Below the pieces are notes generated by a model. The model was not told where the DNA came from, did not search any database, and saw only the letters and a program-made list of their open reading frames with translations. From contig JACOUT010000014.1 in assembly GCA_016177705.1 (NCBI GenBank), positions 186,001 to 250,000 on the forward strand: a stretch of DNA of 64,000 nucleotides, written 5' to 3'. Source of the stretch: Deltaproteobacteria bacterium. GTDB lineage: Bacteria > Myxococcota > UBA727 > VGSZ01. A program made the position numbers and the translations under genes. Positions 45,937-57,756 of this stretch are shown piece by piece. Position 1 is the stretch's first letter, and every line of letters begins with the position of its first letter.

Positions 45937-48900
45937 CTACTGCAGGAACAGGCAGCTCGTCAGGTCGATGATGCCGATCGATCCGTTGATGTCTGCGGTA
46001 CCGGCGTAGAGCGCGCCCGCGCCGTCACGGAACGCGAAGCGCTGCACGTTGAGGGTCGTGTCGACGGTGCCGACGACGGCGAGGGTGGTCGCGTCGATCA
46101 GCGCGATGCGCATGTCGGTGCCCGCAACGACGATGAACCGCGGGTTGACGTTCGGCACCATGGTGATCGCCGTGATGGGGCTGATCGCCGGCGTGTTGAG
46201 GGCTGCAAAGTTGTAACCGCCGGACGCCGCGCTCGGCGTCGCGGCGGTGATGGCGGCAAGGCCGGCATCGCCGCCCGCGATGAGCACGCGCTGGTTGTTC
46301 GGGTCGAAGACCGCGGCCTCGGGCCCGAGCGGCTGCACGTCCTCGACGGGGCCGAGCGACACCGCGAACAAGTCGGTCGCGTTCAGGCCTACGCGCGACA
46401 CGGTGCCGAAGGCGTTGCGCAGTGCGATCGCCTCGTGCCCTGTCGCAAACGGCGCCGGCACGAACACGCTCGGCGCGTAGAAGGTCGTTCCTCGTACTGC
46501 GCTCACCACGCTGGTGTCCGCGCTCAACGAAATGAGCGCGTCATAGTTGGCGTCCCACACGCGTACGCTCCCTTCGTCGAGGACGATGGGGTAGGTGAGG
46601 CTCGCGTTCACCGTACCGGGCGCGACGCCGAGCGCCGAGGCGTAGCGGGCGTCGTTGGTGGGATAGAGGGTTGTCCCGACGGGGGCGTAGGCGAAGCCGC
46701 TCCGCTGGAACTTCGCGATGCGCGCTCCCGGCCCGGCCCCATCGGCGATCCACAGCACGCCCGCCCCGGGCGAGGCGATGCCCTCCGGCCGCACGTACTC
46801 CGTGACCATGTCCACCTGCTGCGGCGCGAACGGATCCGCCAAGTCGTAGACCCAGATTCCGTCCGCGCCCATCGTGACCATCGCGGGTGGAGCGGCGCCG
46901 TCGATCACGGGGAAGCTCCCTTGCACGGCGCCGACGTAGCTCGGCGTACACCCTTCTCCCTCGCCTTCTCCTTCTCCCTCGCCTTCTCCTTCTCCCTCAC
47001 CCTCGCCGCCGACGAGCACCCGATCGATCTCCGCGACCCACGCGCGCCGCGCGTCGGGCAGCGGCGGCTCGAAGAACGCGCCCCAGGTGGTGACGAACGC
47101 CGCGAACTCGCCGGCGGCTGCGAGCGAGAACATGTCGATGGGCGCGTCGCCCGCGAGCAACTGCCCATCGGCGAACAGGCGGCCGCCCGAGGTGTAGAGC
47201 ACGCGCCCGCCACCCTCTGCGGCGGGCAGGCACGCAGGCATGCCGCCCGGCACGCAATGGGTCCCCGGCGGCGTCACGCGCTCCGCCATGCCCTGCGGCG
47301 GGTAGGCGATGCGATAAAGGTCGATATTGGTGTCGGTGTCCGCGGCCGCGAGCGGCCACTCGGTCCACGTCAGCACACCCGTGCCATCGGGCGTGAACAC
47401 CAGGTCGGTGGGCGCGTCCTCGGGAGGCGCCACCGCGATCTCGGAGCTGAAGTAGACGTCATCGTCGACCACGCCATCCCAGCTCGCGGCGGCGCCCCTG
47501 GTCAAGCGATAGGCGACGCGCCAGCGCAAGGCGACCTCGTCGTGGAACAGCGACAACGACGGGCCATAGGTGAACCCGGTGACCGGCCCGCCCGCGCCGT
47601 TGTCGGTGATGCGCAGCAGGTAGGGCAGGCGATCCGGGTAGAGGTACTGCGCGAGATAGACCTGGGGATCCTCGTCGAGGCGCGCGCCGATGAACGCGAT
47701 CGAGGTCCAGCCATAGTCGTCGGCCACCGCCGCGATGGCGGTGCCGTCGAGCACGCCGAGCGCGGCCGGCTCCTCTGCCGAGGCGAGCGAGAACGCCCGA
47801 TAGCCGTGGTCGTAGAGGTAGGCGTCGCGTGCGCCGTTGGTGTCGGCCGGGTTGAGCGAGGCGGTGGTGGTGAAGGCGATCTGTCGGCCGTTCGGCATCA
47901 GCAGGAGCGGAGCGGTCGGCTCGTCGTCGACGTGGAAGGTCTCGCCGTCTGAGCAGGTGACGCAGGTGAACACCGGCGGCAAGAAGCGGCGGTCGACCAG
48001 CACCACGTCGAGCGTGCTCGGATCGTCGTCGTCGGTGACGCCGGGCAGCACCACGTCGGGGCAGCGCAGCGCGGCGAACATCCCGTCGTCCGAGATCGCG
48101 GCCGCCGTGCAATCGTCGAGGTCGGGGCCGGCGGCCAGGTCGATGGGCCCGTAGGCGGGCCGCTGGAACGGATCGAACACTTCGGTGGACGACAGCGGCG
48201 CGCCGCCCGGCGCGTCGCGACCGCCGACCACGAAGACGCGGCCGTCGCCGAGCTCGACGGCGCGGTGCGCGCCGCGGCCCGCCATCATGTTGGCGGCGGG
48301 GGTGAAGGTGCGGGACACGGGATCCCAGAGCTCGGTGCTCGCGATGGCCTGCCCACCCGAAAAGCCGCCGATGATGACGACGCGCCCGTCGGGCAGCACG
48401 GTGGCCGAGTGCCCCTCGCGCCCCTGCGCGAGCGTCCCGGCCGGCTGCCACGCGGTGCCGTCGCGACTGATGATCTCGGCGGTCGCCGGCGTGTCGGCGT
48501 CGCCGCTGCCGCCGATGACCAGCATCTCCTCGGTCGCCGGCAGCCAGCTCGCGGTGAAGTTGACGCGCGGGTGCGCCATCGTCGGCCCGGCGGATGGCGT
48601 GAGCGTGCCGTCGACGTTCAGCACCAGAAGGTCGACGCCGGCGAGCGGGGCGCCGCTCCCGTCCTCGCCGCCGATCAGCCACGCGGTATCCGTCAGGCAG
48701 ATGCTTCGGTGCCGTGCGCGCGCGGTCGGCAACTGCTGTGACGTGAGCGCGCCGCCGCCCCCGAAGAAGACGGAGTTGTCGCCCGACTCGAGCAACGCGG
48801 TGGCTGCGCCGCCCGCATCGACGCCGCCGGCGAAGAGGTACCGGTACTGGCTGTCGCCGGCGCTCAGGAAGTCGAACGATCCATAGGCGCGGCCGGTCAG

Positions 48901-50727
48901 GCCCGGCGTGTAGCTGGTGACGTGCAGCTCCTCGGGCGTCATGGGGAAGAACGACAGCACGTCGCTCCGTACGAAGCCGTCGCCGTCGAAGCCGCCGGCC
49001 ACCAGCGAGTCGCCCTGGTAGCGCGCGAAGCCGAAGTGCGCCGGGTAGTCGCCGGGCACGTCGTCGACGGTGACGCCCGCCACCGTGAACTGCCCGCCGG
49101 CGAACGGGTGGGTCACCAGCACGTCGCCCGAGGCGGCGCCAGCGCCCATGCGCAGGTTGACGACGAACAACGCGTCGTCTGCCGGGAAGAACAGCACGTC
49201 GGCGTCGCTCGCGTCGTAGCCGCTCGGCACGAGCGGCCCCGGCTCCCACCGCCCAAGCCCGCCACCGCCGACCACCACGCGCGGCGTGACGTCGTTGGTG
49301 CCGGCCTGGCAGACCACCGGGTCGTTGGCGCGGCACTGCGGGAAAGCGTCCGAACCCGAGCAGGCGCCGTCGCCGTCGAGATCGGTGCCCTGCCCGAGGC
49401 CGTAACATGGCGGCGGCTCGGTGACGTCGGGCTGGCCGTCGCCGTCGTCGTCGCAGTCATAGACCGCGTCGGCGCCGTCCACGGTCGCCTCGCACGTGGC
49501 GTCGCCGATGGCCTCGCCGAGCGTGACGCCGTCCCAGCACTGGGGCGCGCACGCCTGCCACAACGGCGTCGACGCCGTGGTCAGGGGCGGCAGCGCCTGG
49601 TCGTCGTCGTGGTCGCAGTCGCGGATGCCGTTGTCGCCCTCGCACGGGTCGAAGCCGAAGGTCAGCACCGTCCACAACGGCGGCACCGTCTCGTCGGCCG
49701 GCGGCGGCAGCGCGAGCAGGCCGGTGGTCACGCCCGCGCGATCGTCGTCGCACACGTACAGGTCCCACGCGCCGATCGGCACCTCCACCTGCGCGTCGCC
49801 GCCCGCGAGCGAGCTGAGCGCCACGCGGCCGGGCGTCGTGGTCGGGTCGTCGCACGAGGCTTCCCGTCCCTGCGGCATCAGGAAGGCGCTGCTGGTCGAG
49901 CCCGGCTCCGGCGTCACCTGCACCTGCACGCGCCGCGAGGCGAGCACGCCGATGGGCGGCAGGTGGATCTCTGGCACGGTGACGGTGTCGCCGGCACGGC
50001 CCTCGACCGAACCGGCGCCGATCGCCGCGCGCGCGGCGCCGATGCTGTTGCCATCGACGTCATAGAGCACGGCGCTCAGGTCGACCCTGCCCTCGATGAG
50101 CGCAGTGAGCTGCCAATCGCCTTCGGCGTCGGCTGCGGTCTGCGCTTCGGCGCCGCCCTCGATGCGGTCGGCGAGCGTGTCGGTGTCGGCCGGGTCGCAG
50201 TCGGCGGCGGCGGTCGCGATCGGGTCGGCGGCCGTCAGGCCGAAGCACTGGCCGCGCGAGGCGTAGAGGATGACGCTGGTGCCGGGCGGCGGCGGCACGA
50301 AGGAGCCGGTGCCGTCGTCGATGAGCACGCGCCCCTCGACCTCCATGGTGCCGGTGAGGTCGACCTCGCCGAGCAGCACGAAGCCGACGGTCAGGTCGGG
50401 GTGCATGGGCAGGATGGCGCCGGCGAAGCCGCCGCGCTCGGGCCAGCCATCGCCGTCGGCGTCGTCGGACAGGCGCAGCGACGCAGGGCCGGCCTGCAGA
50501 CCCTTGACGGCGAAGCCGCCGCCGGCGAGCGCGCGCGTCACGCGCCGCGAGCCGAACAGGTCGATGCGCGCGAACGCCGCCGGCTCGTCGGCCGAGGCGC
50601 GCACCGCCGTGCCCGACAGCTCGCCGGGCAGGTGGCCCTCGGCGCGCGGGAACTCGTAGAAGCAGGCGGTGCCGGCCGCGACGAGCGCGGCGGCGGTCAG
50701 GGCGAGGCGACGGACGTTGCTGGCCAT
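45937..50727 (-). CDS. Very large secreted Kelch-type surface protein with Gly-Glu repeat
   Basis: A 1596-aa protein whose signal peptide ends GTAC and may be a lipoprotein signal. The N-terminal ~350 residues contain transthyretin-like beta domains; a Ca-binding-like Asp-rich region follows (CDDDGDGQPDVTEPPPC). Kelch repeats occupy about 660-870 (for example HSATVLPDGRVVIIGGFSGG and HRAVELGDGRVFVVGG), then a TolB/WD40-like propeller to about 1240. Nine Glu-Gly dipeptides and a cysteine (residues 1242-1260) precede a second propeller-like C-terminal region. No catalytic motif is seen. It is convergent with the TPR gene and divergent from the caspase-like gene. Confidence 0.85.
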   Translation of the reverse strand: MASNVRRLALTAAALVAAGTACFYEFPRAEGHLPGELSGTAVRASADEPAAFARIDLFGSRRVTRALAGGGFAVKGLQAGPASLRLSDDADGDGWPERGGFAGAILPMHPDLTVGFVLLGEVDLTGTMEVEGRVLIDDGTGSFVPPPPGTSVILYASRGQCFGLTAADPIATAAADCDPADTDTLADRIEGGAEAQTAADAEGDWQLTALIEGRVDLSAVLYDVDGNSIGAARAAIGAGSVEGRAGDTVTVPEIHLPPIGVLASRRVQVQVTPEPGSTSSAFLMPQGREASCDDPTTTPGRVALSSLAGGDAQVEVPIGAWDLYVCDDDRAGVTTGLLALPPPADETVPPLWTVLTFGFDPCEGDNGIRDCDHDDDQALPPLTTASTPLWQACAPQCWDGVTLGEAIGDATCEATVDGADAVYDCDDDGDGQPDVTEPPPCYGLGQGTDLDGDGACSGSDAFPQCRANDPVVCQAGTNDVTPRVVVGGGGLGRWEPGPLVPSGYDASDADVLFFPADDALFVVNLRMGAGAASGDVLVTHPFAGGQFTVAGVTVDDVPGDYPAHFGFARYQGDSLVAGGFDGDGFVRSDVLSFFPMTPEELHVTSYTPGLTGRAYGSFDFLSAGDSQYRYLFAGGVDAGGAATALLESGDNSVFFGGGGALTSQQLPTARARHRSICLTDTAWLIGGEDGSGAPLAGVDLLVLNVDGTLTPSAGPTMAHPRVNFTASWLPATEEMLVIGGSGDADTPATAEIISRDGTAWQPAGTLAQGREGHSATVLPDGRVVIIGGFSGGQAIASTELWDPVSRTFTPAANMMAGRGAHRAVELGDGRVFVVGGRDAPGGAPLSSTEVFDPFQRPAYGPIDLAAGPDLDDCTAAAISDDGMFAALRCPDVVLPGVTDDDDPSTLDVVLVDRRFLPPVFTCVTCSDGETFHVDDEPTAPLLLMPNGRQIAFTTTASLNPADTNGARDAYLYDHGYRAFSLASAEEPAALGVLDGTAIAAVADDYGWTSIAFIGARLDEDPQVYLAQYLYPDRLPYLLRITDNGAGGPVTGFTYGPSLSLFHDEVALRWRVAYRLTRGAAASWDGVVDDDVYFSSEIAVAPPEDAPTDLVFTPDGTGVLTWTEWPLAAADTDTNIDLYRIAYPPQGMAERVTPPGTHCVPGGMPACLPAAEGGGRVLYTSGGRLFADGQLLAGDAPIDMFSLAAAGEFAAFVTTWGAFFEPPLPDARRAWVAEIDRVLVGGEGEGEGEGEGEGEGEGEGCTPSYVGAVQGSFPVIDGAAPPAMVTMGADGIWVYDLADPFAPQQVDMVTEYVRPEGIASPGAGVLWIADGAGPGARIAKFQRSGFAYAPVGTTLYPTNDARYASALGVAPGTVNASLTYPIVLDEGSVRVWDANYDALISLSADTSVVSAVRGTTFYAPSVFVPAPFATGHEAIALRNAFGTVSRVGLNATDLFAVSLGPVEDVQPLGPEAAVFDPNNQRVLIAGGDAGLAAITAATPSAASGGYNFAALNTPAISPITAITMVPNVNPRFIVVAGTDMRIALIDATTLAVVGTVDTTLNVQRFAFRDGAGALYAGTADINGSIGIIDLTSCLFLQ
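46951..47004 (-). repeat. (Glu-Gly)9 coding repeat followed by Cys
   Basis: On the minus strand, 54 bases encode nine Glu-Gly dipeptides directly followed by Cys1260 of the surface protein. At DNA level an 18-bp unit (46964-46981 and 46982-46999) is repeated almost exactly, with partial copies at both ends. The mixed GAG/GAA and GGA/GGC codons show it is not a simple dinucleotide slippage tract. Such (EG)n-C linkers are a style I recall from myxobacterial and other exported proteins. Confidence 0.95.
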
Positions 50728-50837
50728 GGTGGCTCCAGTCGAGATCGTCTCAGGCCATAGCAGGTGTGCAGCGACGTTGGACCGGGGTTGAACTGGGGAC
50801 CACCTGCCGTCGTATCGTCGTGGCCCCGGAGGTCCGC

Positions 50838-53165
50838 ATGGGTCGTGGTCGCCCCCCCGCTCGTGGCCGCTCGCACGGCGCCAGTCTGCTCATGGTAGCG
50901 CTGGCCGCCGCCGCCGCCACCGTGGCGGCGTACCCGGCGCACGCCCAGTCGTGGCCCTCGGTGTCAGGCGAGCTGCCGCGCACGGGCGGCGGCGAAAACG
51001 ACGTTGCCGTGGTGGTGGGTATCACCGACTACGCCTTCCTCGACGACATCGCAGGTGCGGCCGACAACGCCAACGACTGGTACCAATATCTGGTGCGCGT
51101 GCGCGGCGTGCCGCCCGAGCGCGTGCGGCTGCTCACCAACAACACCGCTATCGACTTCGCCATCACCAAGGCGCTCAAGGAGTCCGCCGCGACGTCCAAG
51201 CGCGGCGGCGTCGCCTGGTTCATCTTCGTCGGCCACGGCGCGCCCTCGCCCACGGGCGACGACGGCCTGCTGCTCGGCGCCGACACCCAGCCCGACATCG
51301 ACGCCATGCAGGCGCGCGGCCTGCCACAAAACAAGGCGCTCGAGCTGCTGCGCGCCGGGCAGCAGGACGCGACCGTGGCGCTGTTCGACGCCTGCTTCTC
51401 GGGCAAGACCGCGGACGGTGAGCGCGCGCTCTTTCCCGGCATGCAGGCGACCCCGCCGGTGCGGCGCGCGGGCCCGGGCGCCAAGAGCGTGGTGCTGTCG
51501 TCGTCGGACAGCTTCGCCGGCCCCCTGCCCGGCCAGAAGCGCCCGGCCTTCTCGTACCTGATGCTCGGCTCCTTGCGCGGCTGGGCCGACGGTGATCGTG
51601 ATGGCGCCGTGTCGCTCTCCGAGGCCACCGGCTACACCACCTCCACCATGCGGGCCGCGCTCAAGGCGAGCGACCGGCTGCCGAGCGTTCGCGGCGAGGC
51701 GCCCGGCCTCGTCCTCGCCAAGAACGTCGTCGAGACGAGCCCCGAGGTGGAGGCGATCCTGGTCGGCCGCTGCCCCGAGGGCACGCGCTGGGAGGAGCGG
51801 CGCTGCAAGACGGTGGCCTGTCCCGCCGGCATGAAGTGGAGCGGCGAGGCCTGCGTGGCCACGCAAGCGGCCATCCAGTGCCCGCCCGGCACGTCATGGG
51901 ACGGCACCCACTGCGCCACCGGCGCCGTGCAGTGCCCGCCCGGCACCACGTGGGACGGCAGGGCGTGCGCGGCCGCCACCGTGCAGTGCCCCGCCGGCAC
52001 CACCTGGAACGGCTCCTTCTGCGCGGGCAGGAGCGTCGTCGTCGACAGCGTGGCGCCGACCGATCTGTCGCGCCTCAACCTCGAGGCCGAGCGCGCGCGC
52101 GACCGTGCGCTCTCGTCCGAAGACGGCAGCTCCATCGAGGAGCGCAAGGCCGCCTGGTGCGCGCTCGCCGAGGTGAGCGGCGACAACCGCTACCGCGACG
52201 AGGCCAAGGTGCGCTGCGACCAGTACGATCAGAAGCTGGTCGCCGCCGCCAACCTCGAGCAGCAGGTGGGCCGCGACTACGAGAACCTGGGCGGCTTCCT
52301 CGATCTGTCGCGCCGCACCTCGACCGAGAAGATCCAGGCGGTCGACGTCTTTCTCGACACCTACGGCAAGCTCGACCGGCAAGAGGTGCACGCCGCGCGG
52401 AAGGCGCGCGAGGAGCTGGCGGCCAACGGCTCGGCGAGCCTGCTGCGCGACAGCGACGGCGATCGCCTGCTGATCGACGCCTGCCCGAACGAGGCGGAGG
52501 ACTACGACGGCGACAACGACACCGACGGCTGCCGCGACGTGCAGGCGGGCGAGATGATCGGCGACGTGGTCGACGACACCGGTGACTTCTTCGGCGACAT
52601 CTTCAAGGGCATCGCCGGCAGCACCGTGCTCGACGAGTACGACGACAAGGACGAGCTCGGCTTCATGGGCTTCGGCGTCAGCGGCGCGGGCACGCTCGGC
52701 GCCGACGTGCCCGCCATCGGCACCATGGACATGCGCCTGTCGTGGGGCGTGATCGAGGGCGGCATGGGCATGGCGACCGACTTCAGCACCGATTCGGACA
52801 AGACCTTCAAGACGCTGTTCCTCGACGGCTACGCGGGGCTGCAGCTCTTCGAGATCCCGCACGAGGACGAGTTCGGCCTGATCAAGCCGAGCGCCGGCGT
52901 GTACGCGCTGTGGAACCCGGGCGCCTCGGACGCCGGCCAACAGGGCCTGCTCGGCTCGCTCTACCTCGCCAACACCAGCCGCATCGCCAACATCGTGCAG
53001 CTACGGTTGTTCTACCGGTACAACCTGTTCGGCCAGCTCGACGGCGCCTCGCCGGGCGAAGACCCCAACACCTTCGAGGCGCTGCCGCCCGCCTGGACCA
53101 TGCGCACGGGCACGCACGTGGTCGGCGCCGAGGTGTCCATCAACATGTTCTCGCTCATGGAGTAA
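50838..53165 (+). CDS. Secreted caspase-like (C14) protein with EF-hand, Cys-rich repeats and barrel-like C-terminus
   Basis: A 775-aa protein. ATG 50838 with GGAGG upstream gives a signal peptide ending AHAQS. The caspase-like domain (about 53-295) has the catalytic histidine in IFVGHGAP (His133) and cysteine in LFDACFSGK (Cys186). A canonical EF-hand loop DGDRDGAVSLSE lies at 251-262. Five CPxGTxWxxxxC repeats follow (312-323, 328-339, 348-359, 366-377, 384-395), then helices, a thrombospondin-3-like calcium segment (DSDGDRLLIDACPNE) and a ~145-residue aromatic beta-strand-rich end that resembles an outer-membrane barrel. It is divergent from the Kelch protein gene. Confidence 0.85.
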   Translation: MGRGRPPARGRSHGASLLMVALAAAAATVAAYPAHAQSWPSVSGELPRTGGGENDVAVVVGITDYAFLDDIAGAADNANDWYQYLVRVRGVPPERVRLLTNNTAIDFAITKALKESAATSKRGGVAWFIFVGHGAPSPTGDDGLLLGADTQPDIDAMQARGLPQNKALELLRAGQQDATVALFDACFSGKTADGERALFPGMQATPPVRRAGPGAKSVVLSSSDSFAGPLPGQKRPAFSYLMLGSLRGWADGDRDGAVSLSEATGYTTSTMRAALKASDRLPSVRGEAPGLVLAKNVVETSPEVEAILVGRCPEGTRWEERRCKTVACPAGMKWSGEACVATQAAIQCPPGTSWDGTHCATGAVQCPPGTTWDGRACAAATVQCPAGTTWNGSFCAGRSVVVDSVAPTDLSRLNLEAERARDRALSSEDGSSIEERKAAWCALAEVSGDNRYRDEAKVRCDQYDQKLVAAANLEQQVGRDYENLGGFLDLSRRTSTEKIQAVDVFLDTYGKLDRQEVHAARKAREELAANGSASLLRDSDGDRLLIDACPNEAEDYDGDNDTDGCRDVQAGEMIGDVVDDTGDFFGDIFKGIAGSTVLDEYDDKDELGFMGFGVSGAGTLGADVPAIGTMDMRLSWGVIEGGMGMATDFSTDSDKTFKTLFLDGYAGLQLFEIPHEDEFGLIKPSAGVYALWNPGASDAGQQGLLGSLYLANTSRIANIVQLRLFYRYNLFGQLDGASPGEDPNTFEALPPAWTMRTGTHVVGAEVSINMFSLME

Positions 53166-53176
53166 CGCGCGCGCCG

Positions 53177-54778
53177 CTACATGCCCTGCACGCCGGGCGC
53201 GAACGCCATCACGTAGGTGAGCGACAGCCGCATGCGCGACGCGCCGGGCAGCGTCATCTTCCAGGTGACGATGCCGTGCTCGTTCAGCTCGGGTGCGCCG
53301 CTGGTCTTGTCCGCCACCAAGGTGACCTCGACGTGCTCGATCTCGCTCACCGGGATGCGCTCCGACACCTCGAGCGTCTTGTCCTCGGCGCCGAGGTTCG
53401 ACAGGAAGATCGAGACCGCGTGGGTCTTGCGGCGCCACTTGTCGACCTCGTCGACCTCCTCGGTGGTGTCGACGGTGCGCTGCACACGTACGTCGCTGTC
53501 CGGCCCGAAGCCGAGCGCGAAGCGCTCGCCGGGTGCTACGTAGAGCGTGCGCGTGGTGCCGACGAACCCCGAGGTCCGTAACAGCTCGACCGGACCGGCC
53601 AACACCGGGTGCTTGCCCGTGTGCGTCTGCACGCTCTTGAACAGCGCCTTGCCGTCGAGCTCGGGCATGGAGACCAACGAGCTGGTCGCCTCGCTCTCGA
53701 AGGTGAAGATGGGCACGAAGCTCGGCCGGCCGTCGGACGGCACCGTGACCGGGTGCAGCGCACGCAGGTTCTGCACGTCGCCGCCGTCGTCGACGCCGGG
53801 GAGCTGCACGCCGCCCGGCGGCGGCCCGCCGCCGCCCCCGCGCCCAAGCCCGGCGTTTTGCACCGCCACCTCGCGCGCCTCCACCACCACGCGCTGCTCG
53901 CGCTTCTTGGCCTGCAGCTTGTCGTCCGTGAGCTTGGGCGGCTCATGGCCGAGCGAGCTGCGCGCCGTTGAGAACACCAACTGCGCGTCGGTCCAGTCCT
54001 CACCCGTGTTCTGCCACACCGCCGCCTGGCAGGTGAAGCGCAGCGCGCGCGCCATCAGTTGCGCCGTGTGAAACGGCCGCCACAGCGCGTTCGGCACAAC
54101 GTACTCGAGGCCGAGCGTGACCGTGCCCGCGGCTGCCGCGTCGAGGTCGATCTCGGCCACGCACTCGAGGCGGTGGTCGGGTCGATCGATCAGGCTGCGC
54201 TTGGTGACGACGTGCGCTGCCTCCTCGGCGAGGCGCTCCATGGTGGCGCGCTGCACACGCTCGTCGGCGAGCAGCGCGCGCGAGGTGCTCGACAGCGACT
54301 CGAAGGTGTCTTCCCAGGTCTTCGGGTGCCCGAGCCCCCAGCCCGCGTCCTCCGGCACCTCGGCCATCGCCTTGTGCATCATGTCGTCGACCACGGCGGC
54401 GCGCGTGGCGGCGCGCTGCCGTTGCTCGGCCGCGTCACGGTGCTGGCGTTCGAGCGCGAGCAACTGCTGCTCGAGCGCCGCGGCGGCCTCGGGCTTCTCG
54501 GCGTGGCCGACGCGCATGGCGCGGCGCACGCGCGCGTCGACCACCTTGGCGCCGCCCTGCACGTCGACGCGCAGGCTGACGTCTTGCGCGACCGGGGCGA
54601 GGCCCCACAGCGCCAGCCGGTTGCGCCCGGCCTGCAGCGCCACCGCGGCCTCGCGGCGCACCTGGGCGCGGTCCTCGAGCAGCGTCACCTTGATGACCGG
54701 CAGCGCGACCTTGACGCGCGTCTCATCGAGCGCGGGGTGGTGGGTGATGAGCGCAGCGGTCAGTGACGTCGTCGTCAT
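53177..54778 (-). CDS. DUF4139 (mucoidy inhibitor A-like) protein, first copy
   Basis: A 533-aa protein. The N-terminal DUF4140-like strand region (VIKVTLLEDRAQVRREA) is followed by a coiled coil and the DUF4139 C-terminal domain with LEYVVPNALWRPFHT, TGEDWTDAQLVFSTA and GFVGTTRTLYVAPGERFALG. A Gly/Pro-rich linker lies at about 315-335. Function of the family is poorly known; MuiA was named for a mucoidy phenotype. ATG 54778 lies one base after the stop of the second, larger DUF4139 gene, so the two are co-translated. Confidence 0.85.
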   Translation of the reverse strand: MTTTSLTAALITHHPALDETRVKVALPVIKVTLLEDRAQVRREAAVALQAGRNRLALWGLAPVAQDVSLRVDVQGGAKVVDARVRRAMRVGHAEKPEAAAALEQQLLALERQHRDAAEQRQRAATRAAVVDDMMHKAMAEVPEDAGWGLGHPKTWEDTFESLSSTSRALLADERVQRATMERLAEEAAHVVTKRSLIDRPDHRLECVAEIDLDAAAAGTVTLGLEYVVPNALWRPFHTAQLMARALRFTCQAAVWQNTGEDWTDAQLVFSTARSSLGHEPPKLTDDKLQAKKREQRVVVEAREVAVQNAGLGRGGGGGPPPGGVQLPGVDDGGDVQNLRALHPVTVPSDGRPSFVPIFTFESEATSSLVSMPELDGKALFKSVQTHTGKHPVLAGPVELLRTSGFVGTTRTLYVAPGERFALGFGPDSDVRVQRTVDTTEEVDEVDKWRRKTHAVSIFLSNLGAEDKTLEVSERIPVSEIEHVEVTLVADKTSGAPELNEHGIVTWKMTLPGASRMRLSLTYVMAFAPGVQGM

Positions 54779-54779
54779 G

Positions 54780-56975
54780 TCAGGCCTCCCGGCGGTTGCC
54801 GCCGACCAGCTCGTTTTGCGCGTAGATCTTGACCACGTAGCGCGCGCGCAGCTTGTCGGCCGCGCCCTTGCCGACCTTGACCTCCCAGCGGCGGCCACCC
54901 TCGATGATCTGGCCGCGCTCCTGCTGGTCGTAGGGCTGCCAGGGCGGCGTCACTTGCAGCTCCTCGACCACCACCTCGGCGCCGGGCGCGGGCACGGGCA
55001 CGCGCTCGCGCACCTCGATCTCGATGTCGCGCTCGAGGTGATTGACCACGTCGATGTCGACGTCGTGCACCAGCTCGGCCATGGCCACCACCTTCTCGCC
55101 GCTGCGCGCCTCGGTGAAGCGCGTGTTGCGCGCCACCTTGATCGCCTGCTCGGCGCCGAGGCCGAGCTTCAGCTCGCCGCGCGCCGGCACGGTCGGCAGG
55201 CGCGTGGTCAAGACGTACTCGCCGCCGACGTAGACCTCGGCCGGGCCGGGCAAGAGCGGCGCCGGGATCGGGTTCATCAGCATGGCGACGCGGTAGACGC
55301 TCGCCTCCTCGCGCGGCACCGCGACGTAGCGCATGCGCGCCTCGCAGGCCCGGTCGCCGAGCGCCACCGAGTGGAAGCCGCCGTCGCCGACGATCTCGAC
55401 GGTGCCGTCGGCCTCGTAGGCGAAATCGAAGTGCGAGGAGATGTCGTCGGCGTCGACCGCGCCGTCCGGCAGGGCGACGTCGAGCACGCCGCGCGCCTCG
55501 TCCTCGGCGCTCGCCACCGCGCTCATGATGTCGAAGCGCAGCGGGCGGCCGGCGCGCGCTGCGGTCGCCTGGTAGTGCTCGCGTACATCCATCGGCACCA
55601 GCCGACCGCGCCCGCCGAGCTGGTCGGCCGAGGGCAAGCGCAGCAGCGGGTAGGCGTAGATGCCGAGCGCCTCGTCGACACTGGCGCCACCAGTTGGCCC
55701 GCGCGCCGCCTTGGCCGCCGGCGCCGAGCGGCCGAGCACGATCGAGTCCATGACCATGGAGGCGGCCGGCGCAGGCGAGCGCGGCGAGGGTGGCGGCGCC
55801 ATCGAGCGCTCCATCTCCATGTCGCCGAGCTCGGCGGCGTCGGCGTCGTCGAACAGCTCCTCCCTCGCCTCCGCGGCGGGCTCCTCTCGGAGCGCACGCG
55901 CGCGGCCGCCCAACTTCTTCGCCTTGGCGTGTACCTGATCGCGCCTCGGCTCGGGCAGCGGCGGGGGCTCGGGCTCCTCCTCGAACGCAGGCGCATGCCA
56001 GGAGCGCGGCGGCGGCAGCGCCTCGGTGGCCTTGCGCAGCTCGCGATCGAAGTCGCGGAACAACACGTCGCCACCTTGGGGCGGCGGGCGGAAGCCGGGC
56101 TTCTTGGCCGGCGGCTGCGCGCGCCCGATCTTGATCGCGGACAGCTCGGGCAGCTCCGAGAAACGCAGCGGCGAAGCCGTCGAGAGCTTGAGCGAGACGC
56201 CGCGCCAGTCTTCGCCGCTGCGCTGCGCGATCCAGGCGCGAAGCTGGATCTCGGCCTTGCTGCCGTCGCGCGACAGCTTGCACTGGTAGGCCGGCGCCCA
56301 GCGCGCGCCCGGCACCACGTACGACAGCTCGAGCGTCACCTTGCGCGCGGCGGCACCGGCGCCCTTGAGCCGCACCACGGCGCTCTTCTTCAGCTCCGGC
56401 AGGTGGACCTCGGCCGCCGACGAGGACGCGGCGATGCGCTCGACGATGCGCGCCTCGGCCTCCTCGAGCTCGCGCGCCTGCTCGCGCAGCGCGCGCCGCT
56501 CGGTCAGGCGCCGACGGGTCGCCTCGTCGACGAACTGCTCGAGCTGCAAGCGGGCCGCCATCGGCGAGGCGGGCGGCGCCTTTCCTTCCTCGCCGCTCGG
56601 CCGCTCCGGCACCGGCACGCCCTGCAGGATCGCCACCTCGGCCTCGAGCACCGCGAGCTGCTCGCGCGCGCCGCGCAGCCGCAAGCGCACCTCCTCCAGC
56701 TCGCGCTGCTCGGGTGCCTTGGGGGGCGGATCACCGGGTCGCACCCACAGGCCAACCCTGACACCCGCGGCCACCACCTCGGCGCCGGCGGGCTCGACGG
56801 CGAGCACGCGCACGCGCGCGGTCGGGTCGACCAGCGTGAGCGGCAGGTCGGCCAGCTCGATCTCGTCAGGCAGCGCGCCCTCGAGTGTCAGCTCCGCGGT
56901 GCGGACGACGGTGGCACCGCGTCGGTACACCTGGACACGGTCGATACGGGACGGCAGGACCGGAGGCGACGGCAT
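54780..56975 (-). CDS. DUF4139 (mucoidy inhibitor A-like) protein, second, larger copy
   Basis: A 731-aa paralog of the neighbouring protein. It has the N-terminal IDRVQVYRRGATVVRTAEL strand, a coiled coil (about 95-190), the core LSYVVPGARWAPAYQCKL and SGEDWRGVSLKLSTASPL, then an acidic/Pro-rich insertion of some 130 residues (about 300-430), and the C-terminal beta domain with VYVGGEYVLTTRLPTVPARG. The ATG at 56975 has a GGGAG ribosome site. Neither copy has a signal peptide, so both are presumably cytoplasmic. It is divergent from exbB. Confidence 0.85.
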   Translation of the reverse strand: MPSPPVLPSRIDRVQVYRRGATVVRTAELTLEGALPDEIELADLPLTLVDPTARVRVLAVEPAGAEVVAAGVRVGLWVRPGDPPPKAPEQRELEEVRLRLRGAREQLAVLEAEVAILQGVPVPERPSGEEGKAPPASPMAARLQLEQFVDEATRRRLTERRALREQARELEEAEARIVERIAASSSAAEVHLPELKKSAVVRLKGAGAAARKVTLELSYVVPGARWAPAYQCKLSRDGSKAEIQLRAWIAQRSGEDWRGVSLKLSTASPLRFSELPELSAIKIGRAQPPAKKPGFRPPPQGGDVLFRDFDRELRKATEALPPPRSWHAPAFEEEPEPPPLPEPRRDQVHAKAKKLGGRARALREEPAAEAREELFDDADAAELGDMEMERSMAPPPSPRSPAPAASMVMDSIVLGRSAPAAKAARGPTGGASVDEALGIYAYPLLRLPSADQLGGRGRLVPMDVREHYQATAARAGRPLRFDIMSAVASAEDEARGVLDVALPDGAVDADDISSHFDFAYEADGTVEIVGDGGFHSVALGDRACEARMRYVAVPREEASVYRVAMLMNPIPAPLLPGPAEVYVGGEYVLTTRLPTVPARGELKLGLGAEQAIKVARNTRFTEARSGEKVVAMAELVHDVDIDVVNHLERDIEIEVRERVPVPAPGAEVVVEELQVTPPWQPYDQQERGQIIEGGRRWEVKVGKGAADKLRARYVVKIYAQNELVGGNRREA

Positions 56976-57047
56976 GGCGATCTCCCGTTGCGGGGTCGGC
57001 AGCATCCCACATCCCGGACGCGGATCACGATCGTCGCCGACCACGCC

Positions 57048-57076
57048 TTGACCAGCGACGAGGGAGCACCTAGGCC
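57048..57076 (+). promoter_or_regulatory. Possible promoter for exbB-exbD-tonB
   Basis: In the 133-base gap between the divergent DUF4139 gene and exbB, TTGACC (57048-57053) is followed after 17 bases by TAGGCC (57071-57076). The -35 is good, the -10 poor. Start of exbB is at 57109 with TGGAGG 10 bases upstream. No Fur-like box is apparent. Confidence 0.3.
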
Positions 57077-57108
57077 AGCAGCTCCACGTTTCTGGAGGCG
57101 CTCCCGCC

Positions 57109-57756
57109 ATGATTACCGAGCTGATCGTTCGCCTTTCCCGCACCGGCGCTGGTGAAGCGGTCATGTGGTTCACCGTCCTGCTGAGCGTGATCTCCGTGGC
57201 GGTGATGATCGAGCGCCTGATCTTCTTCACGACGCACAAGGACGACGTGCGCTCGCTCGCGGCCGAGCTGAACAAATTGCTGCTCGGCAACGACTACGTC
57301 GCCGCGCAGAAGCTGCTCGAGACCTGCAAGGGCTTCGAGACGCGCGTCTTGCGCGCCGCCCTCGAGGTGGCGCCGCTCGGCAAGCACGCGGTGCAGGAGC
57401 TCGCCGCCAGCGCCACCAAGATGGAGCGGCTGCGCTTCGAGCGCGGCCTCGCCTTCCTCGGCACCGTGGGCAACAACGCGCCCTTCGTCGGCCTGTTCGG
57501 CACCGTGCTCGAGATCATCTCGGCGCTCTACGAGCTCGGCACCCAGTCGGGCGGCAACGTCGGCGCCGGCGCCGTCATGGCCACGCTGTCGCAGGCGCTC
57601 GCCGCCACCGCCATCGGCCTGTTGGTGGCGCTGCCGGCGGTCGCGGTCTTCAACTACTTCAACCGCCGCATCAAGACGCTGCAGACCGGCGCCGAGGCGC
57701 TGGTGCACGTGCTGCTCGCGCACATGGGCCCGACCGAAGGCAAGAAGGTAGGCTAA
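57109..57756 (+). CDS. exbB: ExbB/TolQ/MotA-type proton channel protein
   Basis: A 215-aa inner-membrane protein with three helices, the pentameric proton channel part of the Ton/Tol motor. The last two helices (FVGLFGTVLEIISALYE and SQALAATAIGLLVALPAVAVFNYF) with the proton-path threonine and the ALAATAIGLLVA motif are typical. It is followed three bases later by exbD. Assignment to Ton rather than Tol or gliding machinery rests on the tonB gene two places downstream. Confidence 0.9.
   Translation: MITELIVRLSRTGAGEAVMWFTVLLSVISVAVMIERLIFFTTHKDDVRSLAAELNKLLLGNDYVAAQKLLETCKGFETRVLRAALEVAPLGKHAVQELAASATKMERLRFERGLAFLGTVGNNAPFVGLFGTVLEIISALYELGTQSGGNVGAGAVMATLSQALAATAIGLLVALPAVAVFNYFNRRIKTLQTGAEALVHVLLAHMGPTEGKKVG

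Follow-up and report, generated by a model that had tools for sequence, protein, structure and literature searches.

The gene and its surroundings

The window, i.e., the whole stretch of 64,000 nucleotides analysed here, comes from a relative of the myxobacteria and contains, at 50838-53165 on the forward strand, a single uninterrupted open reading frame encoding 775 amino acids plus stop. A ribosome-binding site (GGAGG, 50828-50832, forward strand) was read directly five bases upstream of the ATG at 50838. The left neighbour, a gene for a kelch-type protein (45937-50727, reverse strand), is divergently oriented and the right neighbour, a DUF4139/DUF4140 gene (53177-54898, reverse strand), is convergent, so that the gene is probably transcribed alone; scans for promoters and terminators returned nothing for it. 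The GC content at third codon positions stayed at 0.93-0.98 from the part encoding a caspase domain through the part encoding a predicted barrel, and this steadiness speaks against a frameshift or a misassembly. Both the gene and its stated position are confirmed. The DUF4139/DUF4140 gene on its right is itself one of two adjoining genes of this type (53177-54898 and 54780-57290, both on the reverse strand).

Export signal, caspase domain and cysteine repeats

All features described below are encoded on the forward strand. The protein starts with a Sec-type signal peptide (residues 1-36, 50838-50945), identified by a hydrophobic core at residues 14-32 with a mean hydropathy of 1.83 and by a cleavage site between AHA and QS (residues 34-38) as read from the sequence, in agreement with the preliminary description of an exported protein. 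Besides the catalytic cysteine, the remaining 14 of the 15 cysteines form seven regularly spaced pairs (312/323, 328/339, 348/359, 366/377, 384/395, 441/460 and 549/565), a spacing which suggests that they pair into disulfides. Such a layout is as expected for a protein in an oxidising compartment.

The caspase domain (residues 56-273, 51003-51656) was recognized by profiles from Pfam and NCBIfam and by its place in a tree. Pfam Peptidase_C14 covered residues 56-194 (E 1.7e-5) with 25.0 bits, above the curated cutoff of 21.4, which supports the earlier assignment to the caspase-like proteases. The best profile over the whole domain was NCBIfam NF047832 (caspase, EACC1-associated type; residues 57-273, E 1.3e-15), yet its 57.5 bits fall below the cutoff of 140, as do the scores of the relatives. 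In an alignment of 28 caspase sequences, including that of the window, the catalytic residues His133 (51234-51236) and Cys186 (51393-51395) were each kept in 27, and the His/Cys dyad is thus intact as first described. Asp184, two residues ahead of Cys186, was present in all 26 of the closer sequences. This position is tied to basic P1 specificity in metacaspases and orthocaspases, and its invariance would fit cleavage after Arg or Lys. The exception to the dyad, L035:3706-5844 (reverse strand), has Tyr and Ala at the His and Cys positions and lies beside L035:5106-6533 (reverse strand), whose dyad is intact. The two are tandem paralogues in the same genome as the window, and the former is likely a pseudo-enzyme adjoining an active partner.

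Near its end the domain carries a calcium loop of the EF-hand type, DGDRDGAVSLSE (residues 251-262, 51588-51623). The pattern occurred in 24 of the 28 aligned sequences, even in the distant L051 and L115, and the loop therefore belongs to the caspase family itself. An acquired extra domain was ruled out on the same grounds; of the earlier reading, which counted the EF-hand among the fused segments, the canonical loop remains but the added domain does not. EF-hand motifs have also been reported for archaeal orthocaspases (PMC6426788). Calcium control of the protease is plausible.

The domain is followed by five CPxGxxWxxxxC repeats (residues 312-395, 51771-52022), with starts at residues 312, 328, 348, 366 and 384. 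The five repeats noted previously are real; when the protein was shuffled, 5e-5 such repeats were obtained on average. In the caspase tree, the window protein forms a clade with L033, L037, L038 and L039 (support 100/98), and all five members bear one to five repeats. The repeat also occurs in L048, where a typical C14 caspase is combined with FGE-sulfatase, as well as in L047, indicating a mobile general spacer rather than a clade-specific element. In L047:1949-3532 (reverse strand), for which no caspase match was obtained, the repeats lie between a preceding hydrophobic segment and a subsequent domain that seems to be FGE-sulfatase-like.

Exchangeable C-termini and the C-terminal module

Among the relatives, the same enzyme is followed by other C-termini. 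FGE-sulfatase domains were found in L038, L045, L097, L099, L100 and L101 by Pfam and in L039 by similarity, C-terminal hydrophobic hairpins in L035, L036, L037, L100, L104 and L105 with a single segment in L102, Sel1 in L103, and PDZ together with Sel1 in L106. On the tree of 28 caspase domains the C-terminal type switches at least 12 times, where the helical, DUF1566-like and other types were assigned by eye and L108 was counted as PDZ by its similarity to L106. The exchangeable C-termini, like the family assignment, the conservation of the dyad and the repeats, were computed directly. Since relatives swap C-terminal modules on the same enzyme, the C-terminus probably sets the enzyme's place or contacts. 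In two exported caspases, L099:3105-6944 and L114:1-2670 (both forward strand), FGE-sulfatase-like domains follow in series, with four stretches recognized by Pfam in L099 and those of L114 assigned by eye.

In the window protein, the C-terminal 379 residues (397-775) constitute a separate, mobile module of a helical domain, a thrombospondin type 3 (TSP3)-like segment and eight predicted beta-strands. Homologues of this module, sharing 33-40% identity with it, are present in L040, L043 and L044. In L040 and L044 the place of the caspase is taken by an N-terminus that matches DUF3280 (TolB-like) weakly, and the N-terminal end of L043 is cut by a contig edge. A search with the module alignment recovered three related MAGs in which the module stands apart from any caspase, while a single-sequence scan of genome contigs yielded no relatives. 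The named records bearing the module are Myxococcales or Deltaproteobacteria MAGs, so that the family of the window falls within the myxobacteria and their relatives. Among 195 genomes from the phylum, only this one and others of its own family gave matches that extend into the barrel part, and the fusion of caspase and barrel occurred in this genome only among those searched. Found once, the fusion may represent either a stable lineage or a single recent event. No synteny that would point to a replacement in place was found between the window and the loci of the barrel module.

The helical domain (residues 409-530, 52062-52427), which was absent from the preliminary description, was modelled by AlphaFold2 with pLDDT values mostly of 72-93; it occurs with other partners, and all sequences of the module alignment keep its Cys441 and Cys460. 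L098:1939-4179 (reverse strand), from another family of the phylum, combines a caspase with a related helical domain, followed by a TPR region. The Asp-rich putative calcium segment DSDGDRLLIDACPNEAEDYDGDNDTDGC (residues 538-565, 52449-52532) matches in pairwise comparison the TSP3-type linkers of OmpA-like proteins, e.g., L062 and L063, but a Pfam search gave no TSP3 match, so that the earlier label of a TSP3-like segment holds as pairwise likeness and not as a Pfam assignment.

A barrel-like end had also been proposed. AlphaFold2, run on the C-terminus with a four-sequence alignment, produced eight strands at low-to-moderate confidence (mean pLDDT 58), and a second model, restricted to the final 180 residues, again gave eight (pLDDT 60, pTM 0.56), corresponding to a predicted eight-stranded outer-membrane barrel at residues 606-769 (52653-53144). 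In a Foldseek search against solved structures, OmpA ranked first, and a designed barrel, OprH, NspA, OmpX and Ail were also among the top matches. Nearly all top matches were outer-membrane barrels, small ones first, with a best E of 2.6e-3 and none below 1e-3; this supports the class of outer-membrane barrels, short of proof. By hydropathy, no transmembrane helix was found past residue 300, and only some of the barrel strands were clearly amphipathic; C-terminal hydrophobic hairpins are present in four relatives from the same genome and its family. The protein ends in NMFSLME, without the usual terminal aromatic residue, and phmmer against the PDB returned only chance matches to PapD. The refuting outcomes named in the preliminary description, a soluble C-terminus and unconserved catalytic residues, were not obtained: the C-terminus modelled as a barrel, with modest confidence, and the dyad is kept in nearly all aligned sequences.

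Predicted placement in the envelope

We consider it rather likely that the gene encodes an exported orthocaspase whose C-terminal module serves as an outer-membrane anchor. The chain would be exported by Sec, its cysteines would pair into disulfides, and the last approximately 165 residues would form a small barrel seated in the outer membrane, with the TSP3-like segment and the helical domain forming a stalk. As an even number of strands, here eight, keeps both ends of a barrel in the periplasm, the protease is probably tethered inside rather than outside the outer membrane, a topology which, like the barrel itself, is a prediction from the models. This would place the caspase domain at the periplasmic side of the outer membrane, where it would cleave envelope proteins within its reach, probably behind Arg or Lys, the preference of orthocaspases. 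Calcium bound at its own EF-hand would be needed for it to fold or to be active, and the C-terminal module probably determines the enzyme's site of action or the molecules that it encounters. Proteolytic activity and specificity, the dependence on calcium and the choice of substrates are inferred. We also regard as a long shot that the enzyme is a calcium-gated sensor and executor of envelope damage in the periplasm, in which lost outer-membrane integrity would shift calcium at the EF-hand and the TSP3-like segment and lead to cleavage of envelope proteins, the enzyme being one of a set of paralogues placed by exchangeable anchors at different envelope sites.

The preliminary description had instead suggested display at the outer membrane, i.e., a caspase domain that crosses to the outside and acts on other cells. 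The part in predation, development or self/non-self contact that it raised for the protein is conjecture. The order of passenger first and barrel last is that of an autotransporter, and the calcium segments would suit an extracellular setting, but eight strands are predicted where a classical autotransporter domain has 12, the Pfam autotransporter profile gave no match, and an even strand number without a translocation device would leave both ends periplasmic. In addition, relatives carry the same C-terminal module behind DUF3280/TolB-like domains, which are usually of a periplasmic type. Based on the predicted strands we do not maintain surface display, which appears improbable. Some more weight, although still rather little, is due to a C-terminus that is a soluble or peripheral beta-domain, which would make the protein a free periplasmic or secreted caspase; the low model confidence, the structural matches short of significance, the mixed amphipathicity and the missing terminal aromatic residue are all in line with it, whereas the count of eight strands in both models and the overwhelming share of outer-membrane barrels among the matches are not. 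It is very improbable that the fused parts serve no common function, the gene being a product of accident or decay or two genes wrongly joined during assembly. The architecture does occur in one genome only, but the frame is open throughout with an even codon composition from caspase to barrel, the catalytic, calcium and cysteine residues are all retained, and L098 independently joins a caspase to a related helical domain.

The proposed outer-membrane-anchored orthocaspase shares with other orthocaspases (C14, bacterial p20 caspase homologues) the caspase domain, the His/Cys dyad, the invariant Asp before the Cys and C-terminal accessory modules, and differs in being exported and in carrying cysteine repeats, a helical stalk, a TSP3-like segment and a predicted outer-membrane barrel. 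With OmpA/OprF-type proteins it has in common, by prediction, a small eight-stranded barrel and a TSP3-like linker, but the predicted barrel stands at its C-terminal end, and a protease takes the periplasmic position that the peptidoglycan-binding domain has in OmpA. Prokaryotic caspase surveys, in their accessible portion, describe many partner domains with FGE-sulfatase among the commonest (PMC3501461), and that portion names neither an outer-membrane barrel partner nor such a full architecture. A barrel-anchored caspase was not found in the openly accessible literature nor in the other genomes searched, and to that extent the architecture is undescribed, as had been supposed. What is new is the arrangement with a predicted membrane anchor, on an enzyme whose bacterial family is already known. 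Gingipains (C25), likewise caspase-fold proteases that bind calcium at the outer membrane, leave the cell by type IX secretion and are then fixed to its surface; they belong to a different family, and the likeness is one of possible working mode only.

Most discussion of bacterial caspases concerns enzymes that act inside the cell in death, stress or immunity. Members of the family described here are exported and vary chiefly in which C-terminal module they carry. If an outer-membrane-tethered form indeed exists beside forms with transmembrane hairpins in the same genome, caspases would be put at chosen sites of the envelope, and such a placement would point to where their substrates should be sought.
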